64,000 nucleotides of DNA, from contig NZ_LR134440.1 in assembly GCF_900637855.1 (NCBI RefSeq), positions 1,550,001-1,614,000 on the forward strand. Direction: 5' to 3'. This document shows, piece after piece, positions 58,560-64,000 of this stretch (the first letter of the stretch is position 1; each line of letters opens with the position of its first letter). The DNA comes from Neisseria animaloris. GTDB lineage: Bacteria; Pseudomonadota; Gammaproteobacteria; Burkholderiales; Neisseriaceae. The notes under the pieces are model-generated. The model saw only the letters and a list, made by a program, of their open reading frames with translations, was not told the DNA's origin and ran no database searches. The position numbers and the translations under genes are program-made.

Positions 58560-58597
58560 AACAACATAAGCCGCAAGCAATTGCGGCTTATGTTGTT
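58560..58597 (-). terminator. host terminator of tRNA-Lys
   Basis: Perfect 17-bp arms (AACAACATAAGCCGCAA and complement) with GCAA loop. On the minus strand it begins 8 bp after the tRNA CCA end and is followed by TTTTAGAC. It remained on the host side of the insertion. Confidence 0.8.
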
Positions 58598-58605
58598 GAT
58601 TTATT

Positions 58606-58653
58606 TGGTGGGTCGTGAAGGATTCGAACCTTCGACCAACGGATTAAAAGTCC
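58606..58653 (-). pseudogene. 3' portion of tRNA-Lys(UUU): attachment site of the mobile element
   Basis: Reading the minus strand: GGA-CTTTTAA-TCC (anticodon arm, anticodon TTT), GTTGGTC, then the T arm GAAGG-TTCGAAT-CCTTC, acceptor strand ACGACCC, discriminator A and CCA. The D arm and the 5' acceptor strand are missing; past 58653 the sequence becomes AT-rich and unrelated, and even the last anticodon-stem pair is lost. A 48-bp 3' tRNA fragment beside conjugation genes is the mark of an att site (attL) left by a tyrosine-integrase element in a tRNA gene. Confidence 0.85.
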
Positions 58654-58867
58654 TAGAATATAAATATAACTAATTGTTTTTAAAGAAGAGTTAAGCCTGC
58701 AATTACAGTCATATACAGCCGTATTAAAGTGCATTCAGGCACAAATACGGCACACTTTTAAAACGAAAACTTAAGCCTGCCTATCGTATAGGGTATGTTT
58801 AAATTTTCGTTTTTATTTTGAGCTTATCTGTAAAAAAGCGTTAATTATTTGAAGAGGATTTTAAAAA
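58654..58867. other. element terminus with direct and inverted repeats
   Basis: Non-coding. TTAAGCCTGC is repeated at 58691-58700 and 58771-58780. Between them GCCGTATT (58718-58725) and AATACGGC (58744-58751) form an inverted pair. Such repeats next to an att core may be integrase arm sites or an excision-factor/transfer-origin region. Confidence 0.45.
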
Positions 58868-59194
58868 ATGAATTTAATTCAATGGTTGCTGAATGATTAT
58901 GGTTTCCTTAACACTTTAACGATTAGCTCCATAGTAATTTTAGTTTTTTCCTTATGTGTTATTTTTGAAGGGGCATCTATCACTTCAGTAATTTTCGCAG
59001 GAATAATTGGATATATATTAATTGTAAATTTGGGACCAAGTATTGAAACCTCAAACAAATATGGTTCCACCACTCAAAAACAGAATCTTCACCGTTGCAT
59101 CAAATTTTATCAAGAGAAACATCCATATCTGACGATAGATGACAACAATATAGAAGCTGTAACGGCTTTTTGTAATATCAATTTGCGTTGGTAA
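58868..59194 (+). CDS. small membrane protein of the mobile element, unknown
   Basis: 108 residues. Two transmembrane segments (about 15-35 and 38-56, TISSIVILVFSLCVIF and SVIFAGIIGYILIVNL) are followed by a soluble C-terminal half of about 50 residues with two cysteines. GAAGAGGA lies about 10 bp before the ATG. I do not recognise a family. First gene inside the element and much more AT-rich than the host genes. Confidence 0.6.
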   Translation: MNLIQWLLNDYGFLNTLTISSIVILVFSLCVIFEGASITSVIFAGIIGYILIVNLGPSIETSNKYGSTTQKQNLHRCIKFYQEKHPYLTIDDNNIEAVTAFCNINLRW

Positions 59195-59200
59195 GTGTGG

Positions 59201-59359
59201 ATGGATTTTAAACCGCGCTGCCGCCGTTGTTTTGATTCGATTTTGTGGTATCTGAGAAAATCCATTAGAGGAATAAATTATGAACTTCCGAAAAAAACAA
59301 ATTTTACGACGGCGTTTCATATTGAAACCCGAATCTTCTTTTATCCTTTATTTTACTGA
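59201..59359 (+). CDS. possible short ORF with CRRC motif
   Basis: A 52-codon frame starting MDFKPRCRRCFDSILWYL, seven bases after the previous gene's stop. It overlaps the next gene in another frame from 59280. CxxC and the position between two genes make it possible, but it may be chance. Confidence 0.25.
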   Translation: MDFKPRCRRCFDSILWYLRKSIRGINYELPKKTNFTTAFHIETRIFFYPLFY

Positions 59360-59486
59360 AGACGGTTCTTTTGTTTGTATCGTGAAAGCCAAACCACAAT
59401 TACCAAAAATAAAATTAAAGGAGCCATTGCCTATTCGTAATTTCACGATTGAAGAGCCATTGAGTTTAGAACTTCCCACAACTTAA
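59280..59486 (+). CDS. small basic protein of the mobile element, unknown
   Basis: 68 residues. Very basic first 15 residues (FRKKQILRRRF) then beta-rich sequence with prolines (KAKPQLPKIKLKEPLPIRN). No signal peptide or membrane span. A clear AGAGGAATAA ribosome binding site supports translation. Function unknown. Confidence 0.5.
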   Translation: MNFRKKQILRRRFILKPESSFILYFTEDGSFVCIVKAKPQLPKIKLKEPLPIRNFTIEEPLSLELPTT

Positions 59487-59527
59487 TACCAGTCTCTAAA
59501 TAATGCTTATATATCATTTATCGTGAT

Positions 59528-59557
59528 GCCGTCTGAAGTATTTCAGACGGCTTTTTT
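59528..59557 (+). terminator. DUS-pair terminator with T-run
   Basis: GCCGTCTGAA, a 4-nt loop, TTCAGACGGC, then TTTTTT. The first copy is of the AT dialect. It stands just before virB1. Confidence 0.75.
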
Positions 59558-59581
59558 ACCCTTCACATAGGAGTATGTAAA

Positions 59582-60196
59582 TTGAAACGAAATAAGACTA
59601 TTTTCGTATTGGCAGCAGCATTATATTCCGCCATCTGCTCCGCCGCCCCGTATCCTCAATATCAACATTTAGTAGAAAAACATGCGGAGAAGCAAGGTTT
59701 GGACGTAAATCTAGTATGGGCGGTGATTGCCCGTGAAAGCGGTGGCCGATGGAATGCAACTTCACCCAAAAATGCGCGTGGGTTGATGCAGGTGATTCCG
59801 CCAACGGCAGCCCGGATGGGCGTAAACCCCAAGTATCTCTACAACCCTGAACATAACATCATGGCTGGAACACGTTACTTGAAATTCTTGAGTGAGCGTT
59901 ATAACGGCAATATTGACTTGATGCTTGCAGGGTATAACGCTGGAGAGGGAGCCGTGGACAAATACAAAGGTATCCCTCCATACAGAGAGACACAAAATTA
60001 TGTGCGCTTGGTTCGTAACCGCTACGCACAATTGAGTGGGAACCCTGCTCATGTAGCTGGTACACGTACGGCATTCACTAAAGCGGTTTCCCGAGCCAAA
60101 CCCGTCGCTAAAACAGAACGAGCCGAACCGTTAGAAGCCGCTTATGCTCAGGCTCCTAAACAGCATGCGTCTTGGGATGTATTTGGTGACTTTTGA
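59582..60196 (+). CDS. virB1: VirB1-like lytic transglycosylase
   Basis: 204 residues from TTG 59582, set by AGGAG 8 bp upstream. Signal peptide (cleavage after CSA, about residue 21). SLT domain (about 27-150) with the catalytic Glu in IARESGGRW and motifs NARGLMQVIPPTAARMG and MLAGYNAGEGAVDKY. It opens peptidoglycan for assembly of the type IV secretion channel. The C-terminal 50 residues are Ala/Lys/Pro-rich and end DVFGDF. First of a virB1-virB5 gene row. The ATG at 59575 just before it is followed at once by TAA. Confidence 0.9.
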   Translation: MKRNKTIFVLAAALYSAICSAAPYPQYQHLVEKHAEKQGLDVNLVWAVIARESGGRWNATSPKNARGLMQVIPPTAARMGVNPKYLYNPEHNIMAGTRYLKFLSERYNGNIDLMLAGYNAGEGAVDKYKGIPPYRETQNYVRLVRNRYAQLSGNPAHVAGTRTAFTKAVSRAKPVAKTERAEPLEAAYAQAPKQHASWDVFGDF

Positions 60197-60225
60197 TTAA
60201 TTACATATGAAGTTTTTTTGTGTGT

Positions 60226-60248
60226 CCGCCTCTAGGCGGTTTTTTTTT
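60226..60248 (+). terminator. intercistronic hairpin before virB2
   Basis: CCGCC-TCTA-GGCGG followed by nine T, 10 bp before the virB2 start; the GGAG ribosome binding site is the end of the T run. Terminator-like but inside the virB row. Confidence 0.7.
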
Positions 60249-60258
60249 GGAGATTCGT

Positions 60259-60579
60259 ATGAAATATGTAAGTGAAAATACTCGCCAATGGATTAAAGCT
60301 TTTTTGTTGTCCGTCATGCTTGGCGGCGCACAAGCTGCATTGGCTGCTGGTGGACTGTCTTCGGCAGAGAGCAGTCTTAAAGATGTTATTTTGAGTTTTT
60401 ACGGCATCGTGGCCATTTTGGCAGGGCTGGCCATGCTTGTAACGGCTGTTTGGGGTTATTTGGGTCATAAAACCCTGAAAGACGTCGTTGAAGTATGTGC
60501 CTGGATTTTCTTTGCCGGTGCAAGTTTGGCAATAGCCAAGGCGATCTTTGATTGGGGCAAACAAGCCTACTTTTCTTAG
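60259..60579 (+). CDS. virB2: VirB2-type conjugative pilin
   Basis: 106 residues. Long signal peptide (cleavage near ALA, residues 27-29) and two hydrophobic helices (about 43-65 and 75-97) separated by a short GHKTLKD loop, the standard TrbC/VirB2 pilin layout. It polymerises into the T4SS pilus. The ATG at 60259 follows GGAG; the frame upstream passes through the hairpin. Confidence 0.88.
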   Translation: MKYVSENTRQWIKAFLLSVMLGGAQAALAAGGLSSAESSLKDVILSFYGIVAILAGLAMLVTAVWGYLGHKTLKDVVEVCAWIFFAGASLAIAKAIFDWGKQAYFS

Positions 60580-60590
60580 GATAACTAAAA

Positions 60591-61022
60591 ATGCGGAATT
60601 TACCGGAAGTCGATATAGATACCGAATACAGCACCTATGACGGACTGTCCCGCGAAGCCATGATAGCCGGTGTACCGATTGTACCGGCTTTTATTTTGCT
60701 TATCGCATTGATGGTTAGTGCAATGGGGCTGATACCTTTGTTGGGCTTAAAAGCTCTATCCATTTTTTTATTGGGTATTCCTGTTATTGTTTTTTTGCGC
60801 ATCTTGGTAAAAAGGGATGATCAGGCAATACGGATATTAGGATTGGAAATCTACTGGTGGTTTGTCCGACGGAAGTCCGTTTTATTCGGAGACACTTTAA
60901 CTATTTCTGCAACTAAATTTGGAAGAGACCGAGATGATTATACCCGATTTATTAATGAAGATATTGAGGAAGCAGCCGCCGCAGCAAGACTTTTTTCCGA
61001 AAGTCAGTCAGCACGTTTCTGA
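60591..61022 (+). CDS. virB3: VirB3-type T4SS membrane protein
   Basis: 143 residues. A hydrophobic pair (about 30-70, PIVPAFILLIALMVSAMGLIPLLGL...FLLGIPVIVFLRILV) preceded by GLSREAMIAGVP, typical of VirB3/TrbD proteins, and then a charged C-terminal half KRDDQAIRILGLEIYWW. It anchors near VirB4. The 3' end overlaps virB4 by 89 bp in another frame. Confidence 0.85.
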   Translation: MRNLPEVDIDTEYSTYDGLSREAMIAGVPIVPAFILLIALMVSAMGLIPLLGLKALSIFLLGIPVIVFLRILVKRDDQAIRILGLEIYWWFVRRKSVLFGDTLTISATKFGRDRDDYTRFINEDIEEAAAAARLFSESQSARF

Positions 61023-63321
61023 ACATATTTTTCATTACGACAGCGGCTACTTCGGTTTTACCCTTCAATTTGAAGGTATCCCTTTTGAAGGTGTTAACGA
61101 TGGGCATTTGATCGCTGCCAATGAAACATTGAAAAGAGTGCTTAATGCCGCTGGTAAACAGTATGGTAGCCGGTTAGGGTTGTGGACAACAATTCAGAGA
61201 CAGGAAATCAGCTTAGATCACAAGTATGAGTTTTCCTCGACTTTTTGTAAGGAATTTTCAGAACACTATATCAAAGAGTTCGGTGGCAAAAATTACTATG
61301 AAAACCTGTTTTACATAACAGCCGTATTGAAATATACAGATTTTTCAGACGGCCTTGAGGAGGCTCGAGAGCTTTTGGACTTGATGGTAAAAGGGTTGTC
61401 ACTCTTTGAGCCGCAGCCTTTGTCGGTTTATGAAAATGATTCAGGCGTGATCTTCTCCGAGGCATATCAGTTTTTAGGTACTTTGTGCAATGGCGGCTTG
61501 CGCGAAGAAATTCCCTTAACCGCTTCTGCGGCATATAAGGTCATTCCATCGGCAGATCTACATTTCGGTACGGATATTTTGGAAATCAGGAGTGCTGAAC
61601 ACCGTAAATTCGCCACATGTTATGACTTAAAGGACTTTGGCAAAAGCAAAATCATGGTTTTGCTGCCCGTTCTCTCGTTGCCTTGTGAATTTACACTGAC
61701 GCAGAGTTTTGTCTTTACTGAAAATTCGGAGATGCAGACGGCCATTAATAAACAGAATAATGCCTTGATCAGTGCCAACGACCAAGCAACAGATCAGCAG
61801 GAAGAGTTACTGATCGGTAAAGGGGAGCTGGCAGCAGGCAGAACCATGTTTGGTGATTATTCCGCTTCTCTTGTGGTTTATGGTAAGACAGAAAAGGCCG
61901 CCGATAGAAACGGTTCGGCAGCTGTGACGGCATTTCTAAGTGCCCATGCCTTCCGCTTTGTCCGGGCGACTGGCTCTATGCCTTCAACCTTCTTCAGCCA
62001 AATACCCGGCTATCGCCAACGTCCTCGCATGATTCCCAAAACCACTACCAACCTTGCCACTGTTTTCGGTATGCACAATTACCCGCAAGGTAAAAGTTGG
62101 GGAAACCCAATTGGTGATGGTTCCCCCGTTATGCCGCTGAAAACTCTGTCCAATACGCTGTTTAATTTAAGTCTGCATTACAGCCTGAAAAACCTCAATA
62201 TGGTTGGTAAAAAAATAGCGGGGCATACTCTGATTACCGGTGCGACGGGTACAGGTAAGACGGCACTCGAAACGACTGTTTTGGCCTTTATGGAACGCTT
62301 TAATCCCTATATGTTTGTGTTGGATTTGGATAGGGGGATGGAGATTTTTGTGAGAGTGTTGGGTGGGTCATATTTCGCCCTGGAAGAAGGCGTGGATAGC
62401 GGGTTAAATCCGTTCCAACTGCCGGATCTGCCGAAAAATCGCAGTTTTCTGTACCGGTTGGTCAATCTGTGTGCCGGTGGTGCGGACGCTTCGGAAGAAA
62501 GGCAGATCAAATTGGCGGTAGATACCTTGTATGAGCTGGCTTCAGAGCATAGAAATTTCAGCACTTTGTTGGATAACCTGCCTTTTTCCACTTCCAAAAA
62601 TTCGCTACGCACCCGTTTGTCAAAGTGGTGTCGAAGCGAAAATGGGGAGTACGCATGGTGTCTAGACAGCCTGCAAAACCGTTTCAATCCCGACGCTTTC
62701 TACCGGATAGGAATGGATGCCACTTGTATTCTGAAAACAAATTATGAGCCAACAGGACCAGTATTGTCGTACCTGTTTTACCTGAAAGAAATCATGTCGG
62801 AGCGTGTAGCACAGGAAGGTAGTCTGTTGGCTTCGGTTATTGCCGAGTTTTGGTATGCAGACCGTTTCGATATTACTTCCGAGTTGATGCTTAAAACCTT
62901 GAAGACCGGCCGGAAGTTGGGTGAATTTATGTTTTTGGATTCACAATCTCCCGAGGACGCGGCCAAATCTCCCAATGCAGCTGCAATTGTTCAGCAGACA
63001 CCAACTAAGATTTTCCTGCCTAATCCTGATGCCAGCAAAGACGCTTATATGCAATGCGGACTGACGTATAAAGAGGCTGAGGAAGTCATCAAGCTGCACC
63101 CGCTCAGTCGCACATTCCTGATTAAGCAGGGAAAACAAAGCACGTTGGCAACGCTTGATCTGCATGAGTTCGACAAGGAACTGATTGTGTTGTCCGGCAC
63201 GTCGGAAAACGTAGCTCATATGCACCGCATCATGGAAGAGACCGGCAGCGAAGATCCCGAAGTATGGCTCCCGCTGCTTTATCAGACGGTACTGGGGAAA
63301 ACGACCGCCGATACCGCCTAA
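60934..63321 (+). CDS. virB4: VirB4-type T4SS ATPase
   Basis: 795 residues. CagE/TrbE/VirB family N-terminal domain (about 20-400) and a RecA-like ATPase domain with Walker A TGATGTGKTA (about 435-444), MFVLDLDRGMEIF as the following motif and FLDSQSPEDA around the Walker B region. It energises pilus assembly and substrate transfer. GGAAGAG before ATG 60934 sets the start; other in-frame starts are TTG 60919 and ATG 60955. An AG-type uptake sequence (61344-61355, encoding SDGL) shows that the element has evolved within Neisseria. Confidence 0.93.
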   Translation: MIIPDLLMKILRKQPPQQDFFPKVSQHVSEHIFHYDSGYFGFTLQFEGIPFEGVNDGHLIAANETLKRVLNAAGKQYGSRLGLWTTIQRQEISLDHKYEFSSTFCKEFSEHYIKEFGGKNYYENLFYITAVLKYTDFSDGLEEARELLDLMVKGLSLFEPQPLSVYENDSGVIFSEAYQFLGTLCNGGLREEIPLTASAAYKVIPSADLHFGTDILEIRSAEHRKFATCYDLKDFGKSKIMVLLPVLSLPCEFTLTQSFVFTENSEMQTAINKQNNALISANDQATDQQEELLIGKGELAAGRTMFGDYSASLVVYGKTEKAADRNGSAAVTAFLSAHAFRFVRATGSMPSTFFSQIPGYRQRPRMIPKTTTNLATVFGMHNYPQGKSWGNPIGDGSPVMPLKTLSNTLFNLSLHYSLKNLNMVGKKIAGHTLITGATGTGKTALETTVLAFMERFNPYMFVLDLDRGMEIFVRVLGGSYFALEEGVDSGLNPFQLPDLPKNRSFLYRLVNLCAGGADASEERQIKLAVDTLYELASEHRNFSTLLDNLPFSTSKNSLRTRLSKWCRSENGEYAWCLDSLQNRFNPDAFYRIGMDATCILKTNYEPTGPVLSYLFYLKEIMSERVAQEGSLLASVIAEFWYADRFDITSELMLKTLKTGRKLGEFMFLDSQSPEDAAKSPNAAAIVQQTPTKIFLPNPDASKDAYMQCGLTYKEAEEVIKLHPLSRTFLIKQGKQSTLATLDLHEFDKELIVLSGTSENVAHMHRIMEETGSEDPEVWLPLLYQTVLGKTTADTA

Positions 63322-63341
63322 ACAATGCGGTGTGCCGCCAA

Positions 63342-63374
63342 CAAATACCGTCTGATTTTTTCAGACGGTATTTG
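63342..63374 (+). terminator. hairpin after virB4 built from a variant DUS
   Basis: CAAATACCGTCTGA, 5-nt T loop, TCAGACGGTATTTG. Perfect 14-bp arms containing a DUS-like core with one change (ACCGTCTGA). Confidence 0.65.
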
Positions 63375-63381
63375 CTTTTGT

Positions 63382-63403
63382 CCGCCATTTGGCGGCTTTT
63401 TCT
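63382..63403 (+). terminator. intercistronic hairpin before the virB5-like gene
   Basis: CCGCC-ATTT-GGCGG then CTTTTTCTTT, 21 bp before the next start. Nearly the same design as the hairpin in front of virB2. Confidence 0.65.
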
Positions 63404-63423
63404 TTATCTAAAGTGAGGTAATC

Positions 63424-64000
63424 ATGAATATTCGAAAACTCAAAAAAACAGCCATGACAACTTTGATTTCTACAGGATTAATGTTTGGTGCCCTCGCCCC
63501 TGCTACGGCTGGTATTCCAGTAACTAACCCGCTAGGGTTAGCGCAGCAAGTTCAGCAGACAATTCAAATGGGGCAGCAAATCCAAAACCAAGTGAAGCAG
63601 ATTGCAGAAATTAAAAATCAACTAAAAGCCATTACCGGCAACCGCAACCTCGGTAATATCTTAAAAACCGAAGCATTCGAGCGATTGCCGGACGAGTGGA
63701 AGTCGGTTTACAGCCAAGCTATGAAGGCTAAAAACGGGAACTTTGAAGATTTACTGAGTTCCAAAGGCTATGACAAAAATGCCGACGATAACCGTTTGGT
63801 TAAGCATTATGATCTGACTTTAAAAGCCATTAAAGATTCAGAACTGCGTTTTAAAAACATCAAGGCATTGATGAATCAGGTCAACACAACCCAAGATGCG
63901 AAGGCGGCTGCCGACCTGATGAACCGTATTCAATTGGAAAATGCCTATATCCAGCAAAACCAAACCCAATTGGATATGTTGGAACGCTTTATGGCGTTGG
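63424..64000 (+). CDS. virB5: VirB5-like T4SS protein, cut by the window end
   Basis: Partial; 192 codons are visible and the frame is open at the edge. Signal peptide MNIRKLKKTAMTTLISTGL...ATA, cleavage before GIP (about residue 30). A Gln-rich helix follows (LAQQVQQTIQMGQQIQNQVKQ), then mostly helical sequence with the NLGNILKT segment, matching VirB5/TrbJ-type minor pilus-tip proteins. GTGAGGTAATC precedes the ATG. Family assignment rests on helix pattern and gene order after virB4. Confidence 0.75.
   Translation, partial: MNIRKLKKTAMTTLISTGLMFGALAPATAGIPVTNPLGLAQQVQQTIQMGQQIQNQVKQIAEIKNQLKAITGNRNLGNILKTEAFERLPDEWKSVYSQAMKAKNGNFEDLLSSKGYDKNADDNRLVKHYDLTLKAIKDSELRFKNIKALMNQVNTTQDAKAAADLMNRIQLENAYIQQNQTQLDMLERFMAL

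Follow-up and report, generated by a model that had tools for sequence, protein, structure and literature searches.

The 64-kb window analyzed here (the whole stretch of DNA under study, positions 1550001-1614000 of a closed Neisseria animaloris genome of 2,338,721 bp) holds, near its right end and on the minus strand, the 48-bp 3′ part of a tRNA-Lys(UUU) gene, CCA included, beyond which AT-rich DNA follows where the 5′ half would be expected, and from there a row of conjugation genes runs rightward up to virB5, in which the window breaks off (Table 1). A sequence-only reading of the window had taken this for the left end of an integrative and conjugative element (ICE), and what it had listed proved to be in place: the fragment with the host terminator to its left and the AT-rich DNA beyond, two small open reading frames (ORFs) of “unknown” nature that indeed match nothing in Pfam at E ≤ 0.01, and a virB1-B2-B3-B4-B5 row, in which virB1, virB3, virB4 and virB5 pass the Pfam cut-offs and virB2 stays just under its own. 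The remaining parts, which the same reading had placed beyond the window, are all encountered when the genome is followed to the right: a complete tRNA-Lys, an integrase gene, virB6-virB11, virD4 and a relaxase gene.

Attachment sites and their state in related genomes

The 48 bp of the fragment (attL, the left attachment site) are repeated exactly inside the complete tRNA-Lys (attR, the right one) 42,273 bp further right, which gives the flanking direct repeats, one of them completing the tRNA gene, that are to be expected of a tRNA-inserted ICE; the other hallmarks of such an element, namely a site-specific recombinase beside the tRNA (PF00589), a complete conjugation apparatus with coupling protein and relaxase (virB2 being under its cut-off and virB7 assigned by position) and an unoccupied site in a relative (G027, with 5.6 kb of different DNA to the left of the terminator), were found as well. 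No complete tRNA was detected within the window by ARAGORN, and the first 25 bp of the fragment have three copies in the genome at ≤2 mismatches, i.e., attL and two complete tRNA-Lys genes, the second of which (genome 1656250-1656325) lies 5.4 kb to the right of the first. Since the integrase gene extends into the tRNA-Lys, the C-terminus of its product is expected to change on excision: it is ...GLKVRCSTG in the integrated form and would be ...GLKVLEYKYN in the predicted circle.

The second complete tRNA-Lys, that is, a clustering of tRNA-Lys copies, might raise the suspicion that a host tRNA was once duplicated and the fragment remained, the virB row lying next to it by coincidence. G027, however, possesses both complete tRNA-Lys genes, intact and arranged as here, with no fragment found in that genome, and its right flank (92.4% identical over 6.7 kb, tRNA included) runs on through the intact tRNA-Lys into a similar terminator; as three other elements (see below) are arranged alike, a host duplication has next to no chance of being the explanation, and a chance repeat was likewise rejected on the intact tRNAs of G027. 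The nuoN-side flank is kept in G027, too (95.6% over 4.36 kb, stopping 381 bp short of the site in the window's genome). The sequence-only reading thus stands on both points at which it had declared itself vulnerable: a complete tRNA does exist on the right, and the element-free site carries an intact, not a truncated, tRNA.

Relatives of the integrase (E ≤ 1e-60) are present in 20 of the 46 genomes of the genus (own included), and three further elements sit at the same site with the same polarity, one in G005 (20.4 kb) and two in G007 (53.1 and 28.7 kb), each with the whole tRNA-Lys next to its integrase gene and no more than a partial copy (98, 91 and 81% identical) at the opposite end, which indicates that the site is reused; in G020, by contrast, two complete tRNA-Lys genes stand at the corresponding places. 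The G005 element (G005:C1 496427-516869) encodes an integrase 89% identical to the present one; no VirB4 relative was found in that genome at E ≤ 1e-120, and the element is possibly mobilizable rather than conjugative. The integrase copies of G007 lie at 952430 and 1304405 of G007:C1, and only the first of these elements has a VirB4 relative at the same threshold. In the family, such relatives occur in 24 of the 83 genomes (own included), the closest full-length ones being 79% identical, and the identity remains below 60% throughout the best 5000 plasmid records. The relative of the element in Neisseria weixii (L022, NZ_CP023429.1) has its virB4 split across several reading frames, the pieces being 73-82% identical.

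Copies of the uptake sequence GCCGTCTGAA number 31 in the 42,225-bp element (0.73 per kb), 3158 in the 2.34 Mb of the genome (1.35 per kb) and 82 in the 58.6 kb of host DNA within the window, with AG-DUS (DUS, DNA uptake sequence) as the main dialect in both the element (22/31) and the host part (67/82). This density, together with a G+C content of 43.9% in the element versus 51.4%, is what one would expect of a foreign element that has taken on the host dialect in part. The uptake sequences that the sequence-only reading had placed in virB4 and its flanks come down to a single exact 10-mer within virB4, the only copy there, and an inverted pair ahead of virB1; the long residence in Neisseria deduced from them is supported only in part, the density being about half that of the genome. 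The same half density of host-dialect uptake sequences, along with the broken virB4 of the N. weixii relative, could also speak for a stranded island that looks complete and has lost its ability to excise and transfer. Against this, the frames of the conjugation genes and the integrase are open here, and the related ICEriNK and ICENmu occur as circles (PMC7371117), and a stranded island is considered distinctly unlikely.

A VirB5 tail echoed in a small lipoprotein

Between virB5 and virB6, just where the exclusion lipoproteins EexN and TrbK are encoded in other systems, lies a gene for a 68-aa lipoprotein (distinct from the 68-aa ORF near attL) that contains ...RDNCIRDNRINNTNVDC..., and the C-terminal end of VirB5, whose motif lies outside the window, reads ...VDNCIRDNRINNTNKSCG. 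The VirB5 tail scores 89 against this lipoprotein, internal VirB5 windows score at most 27, and the 17 identical residues are encoded by the same codon in only 8 cases. Tail and lipoprotein vary together in other Neisseriaceae elements, as in ARNSCIRQNRINNSN / QRNSCIRQNRINNTN (G023), KDRCFIAAKY / KDECFIKAKY (G078) and AKCIASHLEDRNF / ASCIASHTLDKNF (G051). Matched scores of 57-89 were obtained for nine adjacent pairs (internal VirB5 windows, 23-32) and of 37 for two more (windows, 26-27), and in G081 a lipoprotein behind virB6 scores 49, the next ORF reaching 25; in sum, a small lipoprotein with a tail-like segment accompanies 12 of the 26 Neisseriaceae VirB4 loci, the likeness being strong in 10 and weak in 2.

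A comparison of two elements, G015a and G023, is instructive as to how such pairs may spread: their identity is 97% where virB4 ends, 85-94% over the body of virB5 and 94% where virB6 begins, but falls to 59% over the final 22 virB5 codons and to 71-83% over the lipoprotein gene, and in this very region G015a is nearer the window's element (77%, rising to 85-90% in the middle and the motif of the lipoprotein gene). Tail and lipoprotein accordingly seem to move between elements as one specificity cassette.

The same resemblance in other conjugation systems

Among 24 non-redundant VirB5/TrbJ-lipoprotein pairs (drawn from 45, all gathered once the pattern was already known), the own partner takes first rank in 18; none of 100,000 permuted pairings reached the observed mean, and the adjoining VirB5 segment, used as a control, gave no signal. 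The 24 include a Sphingobium partner without a lipid cysteine and a Comamonas partner with only an unusual lipobox. Left out were the Xanthomonas citri EexN (cut by the end of the stretch) and a second ORF there without a lipobox, a Photobacterium ORF (no lipobox), Burkholderia and Caballeronia ORFs (behind virB6), a Moraxella EexN (cut), two plasmids without an ORF between virB5 and virB6 (L138, L140), G081 (behind virB6, score 49), the first of the two pTE_C_2 trbK genes (score 22) and the distant trb pairs; the second pTE_C_2 TrbK (62), R751 and pAB3 belonged to the 45 and were removed as redundant. Loci without a VirB5/TrbJ ORF were also set aside, such an ORF having been found in 13 of the 36 short loci and 9 of the 20 longer stretches, and L165 and L166 have a VirB5-like ORF without an adjacent lipoprotein.

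The IncP exclusion pair of R751, TrbJ/TrbK, scores 53 (controls, 22-28) and has the C-terminal ends in common, and other pairs of the TrbJ/TrbK type score 76 (pAB3), 67 (Sphingobium) and 61 (Comamonas); of the two TrbKs of pTE_C_2, only the second scores high. IncN-type VirB5/EexN pairs range from clear (38 vs. a control of 26) to unconvincing by score (e.g., 20 vs. 21 for a Shigella plasmid). In three trb elements, the matching lipoprotein is encoded ~7.9 kb upstream of the trbJ end (58, 44 and 59), and in two of these the lipoprotein adjoining trbJ scores only 25; no strong match was found in the other four of the seven trb elements searched for a distant partner (26, 29, 30 and 30). L183 and L186 are trb-type elements with two EexN-like lipoproteins, of which the distant one matches the TrbJ tail and the trbJ-adjacent one does not. 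Plasmid 2 of N. gonorrhoeae WHO L (L212, 1707-1847) has a 46-aa lipoprotein ORF between trbJ and trbL that is absent from the gene table of the plasmid, and the tail of its product resembles that of TrbJ. No statement of a similarity between VirB5 tails and exclusion proteins was found in the literature searched (PMC8923210, PMC11045733, PMC9825185, PMC12624023, PMC13381706, PMC2848598 and PMC7690428 among it), as far as its available text goes; it may be known in subscription papers or preprints, which lie outside that search.

The adjacency of the two genes in most cases, as well as the apparent exchange of the tail region between elements seen with G015a and G023, might suggest that the match merely records a recent event of duplication or gene conversion that involved the virB5 end and the neighboring gene. 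Identical residues often differ in codon, however (the same codon is used for 52 of 94 over eight chosen pairs, for 2 of 11 in the Acinetobacter plasmid pAB3, and in the own pair as given above), and the genes stand ~7.9 kb apart in the three trb elements. Codons and distant pairs alike disfavor recent duplication as the sole cause, so that this explanation is given little credence, and the tail match is probably kept by selection.

Proposed working of the element and of its exclusion lipoprotein

From the gene complement, the integrase, with the HTH_17 protein as a putative excisionase under the control of the Cro/S24-type repressors, would recombine attL with attR, freeing a circle and restoring the tRNA; the relaxase would then nick an origin of transfer, VirD4 would feed the nicked strand into the VirB channel, and integration into a tRNA-Lys would follow in the recipient. 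The lipoprotein encoded after virB5 would block repeat receipt by cells already carrying the element: its C-terminal part, a copy of the tail with which the pilus-tip protein VirB5 of the same element ends, would occupy, within the recipient envelope, the site needed by an incoming VirB5 tail. The match goes with the element, not with its host, and the binding partner of the tail is therefore most likely element-encoded, i.e., VirB5 itself or VirB6/TrbL, rather than a host receptor. The reading as a whole, in which the last 5.4 kb of the window open a complete 42.3-kb ICE lodged in tRNA-Lys(UUU), of a kind already described in Neisseria (PMC7371117), and the lipoprotein with its VirB5-like tail would prevent re-entry, is given a probability of roughly 85%. 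The broader proposition that TrbK, EexN and the Neisseria lipoproteins all exclude by molecular mimicry of the pilus tip, tail and lipoprotein forming an exchangeable self-recognition cassette, is only slightly more likely than not, its odds being lowered by the broad-range TrbK result taken up below (PMC8923210).

A copy of the VirB5 tail on the recipient side would account for several published results at once: VirB5 is the pilus tip (PMC12624023); the C-terminal region of TrbK is required for exclusion, and the IncP TrbK has no known donor partner (PMC8923210); and recipients expressing RP4 trbJ or trbK become resistant to killing by a donor with the RP4 type IV secretion system (T4SS) (PMC11045733). 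The exclusion mechanism itself was stated to be one that “remains unknown” (PMC9825185). One may argue instead that the tail common to both proteins serves for docking onto a donor-side partner in the channel or outer-membrane complex, the lipoprotein being structural and not an exclusion protein: VirB5 and lipoprotein are made together in the donor, the TrbK of pKPC_UVA01 is required in the donor for exclusion (PMC8923210), and the own lipoprotein, with Gly after its lipid Cys, may sit in a membrane other than that of TrbK. The match is present, on the other hand, in TrbK and EexN, which are known exclusion proteins, TrbK is dispensable for transfer (PMC8923210), and the element has a separate VirB7-like lipoprotein; a purely structural role is thus unlikely. 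The residue after the lipid Cys governs the membrane sorting of lipoproteins, and in the own lipoprotein it is Gly, not Asp.

A number of observations weigh against the mimicry of the pilus tip or against the element as a functional ICE. At 11 of the 26 Neisseriaceae VirB4 loci, no partner was found, the search having covered the whole element in G007 (best ORF 39, not lipoprotein-like), a few kb in the others and also the far end in G025; 3 further loci fell outside judgement (a contig edge, no virB5 in the stretch, a different build). The own partner does not rank first in 6 of the 24 pairs, the classical IncN pair of R46 scores 21 against a control of 22, and the own lipoprotein matches neither the EexN (NF033894) nor the TrbK (TIGR04359) model at E ≤ 0.001 in a search of the own genome. 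Exclusion by the TrbK of pKPC_UVA01 also depended on its presence in the donor, and in the recipient this TrbK excluded both IncP R751 and IncN R46, the own systems of which did not exclude pKPC_UVA01 (PMC8923210); so broad a range would mean that this larger TrbK works differently or that recognition is not purely tail-for-tail. Exclusion in the F, IncC and SXT systems is directed at TraG of the donor (PMC8923210). As for the ICE, none of the inverted repeats listed near mobC is convincing as an origin of transfer. Finally, ~5.6 kb of other DNA separates the terminator from the nuoN-side flank in G027; as its right flank, tRNA and terminator are continuous, an unoccupied tRNA is nevertheless shown, and the left neighborhood has changed separately. 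This stretch (G027 C4, L095), absent at this place from the window's genome, contains two large ORFs of 925 and 589 aa that resemble a TonB-dependent receptor and its lipoprotein partner.

Were the mimicry true, TrbK would gain the donor-side partner it has lacked so far, exclusion groups could be assigned from sequence, and the compatibility of conjugative elements within one cell could be predicted; copying of the tail, faithful to the element across VirB5 and TrbJ systems, is at any rate an answer specific enough to be tested. The ICE, for its part, widens the range of known Neisseria elements to tRNA-Lys, an insertion site that it shares with at least three more in the genus.

Other genes of the element

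The element also carries a pair matching the IetAS anti-phage system, an AAA ATPase and a subtilisin-like protease (genome 1626713-1630059; PADLOC, 3.1e-40 to IetA and 1.9e-62 to IetS), and a DUF5131 protein with a TcmP-like partner (genome 1621797-1623969; NCBIfam tcm_partner) that match the candidate defence pairs PDC-M30/PDC-M41. The 68-aa lipoprotein was also considered as VirB7, which was rejected because a separate VirB7-like lipoprotein precedes virB8.

Table 1. Positions of the attachment sites and genes of the element, given in window or genome coordinates.
Feature	Position	Strand	Remarks
Terminator hairpin, flanking host DNA, downstream of the old tRNA-Lys	window 58560-58600	-	From sequence; similar hairpin at the same place in G027
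attL, 48-bp 3′ part of tRNA-Lys(UUU)	window 58606-58653	-	Same sequence as the complete tRNA-Lys at its 3′ end
108-aa ORF	window 58868-59194	+	No Pfam match at E ≤ 0.01
68-aa ORF	window 59280-59486	+	No Pfam match at E ≤ 0.01
virB1, lytic transglycosylase	window 59582-60196	+	PF01464, 1.3e-27
virB2, pilin	window 60259-60579	+	PF04956, 1.2e-5; 25.8 vs. cut-off of 27.9 bits
virB3	window 60591-61022	+	PF05101, 2e-10
virB4, ATPase	window 60919-63321	+	PF03135, 1.1e-23
virB5, pilus-tip protein	window 63424-64000 (cut by window end); genome 1613424-1614089	+	PF07996, 3.7e-27
68-aa candidate exclusion lipoprotein	genome 1614110-1614316		Between virB5 and virB6
virB6	genome 1614363-1615355
virB7-like lipoprotein	genome 1616099-1616218		virB7 by position, before virB8
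virB8-virB11	genome 1616218-1620166
SSB gene			After virB8-virB11, before virD4
virD4	genome 1624513-1626537
Primase-like protein (PriCT_2, Toprim)			After virD4
MobC and relaxase	relaxase, genome 1634175-1635809		PF03432; best NCBIfam match MobP1, under its cut-off
Zeta-toxin-like and PemK-toxin-like proteins			Right of relaxase
P22 Cro-like and S24-type repressors; ParA-like ATPase			Right of relaxase
HTH_17 protein	genome 1649607-1649936
Tyrosine integrase	genome 1649810-1650943		PF00589, 7.5e-35
attR, complete tRNA-Lys	genome 1650879-1650954 (outside window)		Adjoins the integrase gene

Comparison with known systems

ICEriNK of N. gonorrhoeae and N. meningitidis has in common with the present element an MPF_T virB operon, a MOB_P relaxase and a coupling protein, as well as a terminal integrase at attR, a ~50-bp repeat of a tRNA 3′ end at attL and Cro/C1-like regulators, but resides in tRNA-Asn instead of tRNA-Lys(UUU) (PMC7371117). 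ICENmu, known from N. mucosa-like commensals, likewise shares the MPF_T virB genes, the MOB_P relaxase and the terminal integrase, whereas it inserts at a 21-bp uptake-sequence motif outside tRNA genes (PMC7371117). The VirB/D T4SS of N. subflava bv. perflava KU1003-02 is another system of a commensal Neisseria distinct from the gonococcal genetic island; no virB7 was found there, whereas the present element has a candidate, and none of the terms “integrative and conjugative”, “ICE”, “integrase” and “tRNA” appears in the text that describes it (PMC7643975). With TrbK of IncP and EexN of IncN plasmids, the 68-aa lipoprotein shares its small size and a gene position between VirB5/TrbJ and VirB6/TrbL, and in many of those pairs the C-terminal part resembles the adjacent VirB5/TrbJ tail, just as it does here; the TrbK and EexN sequence models miss the Neisseria lipoprotein, a candidate exclusion protein.

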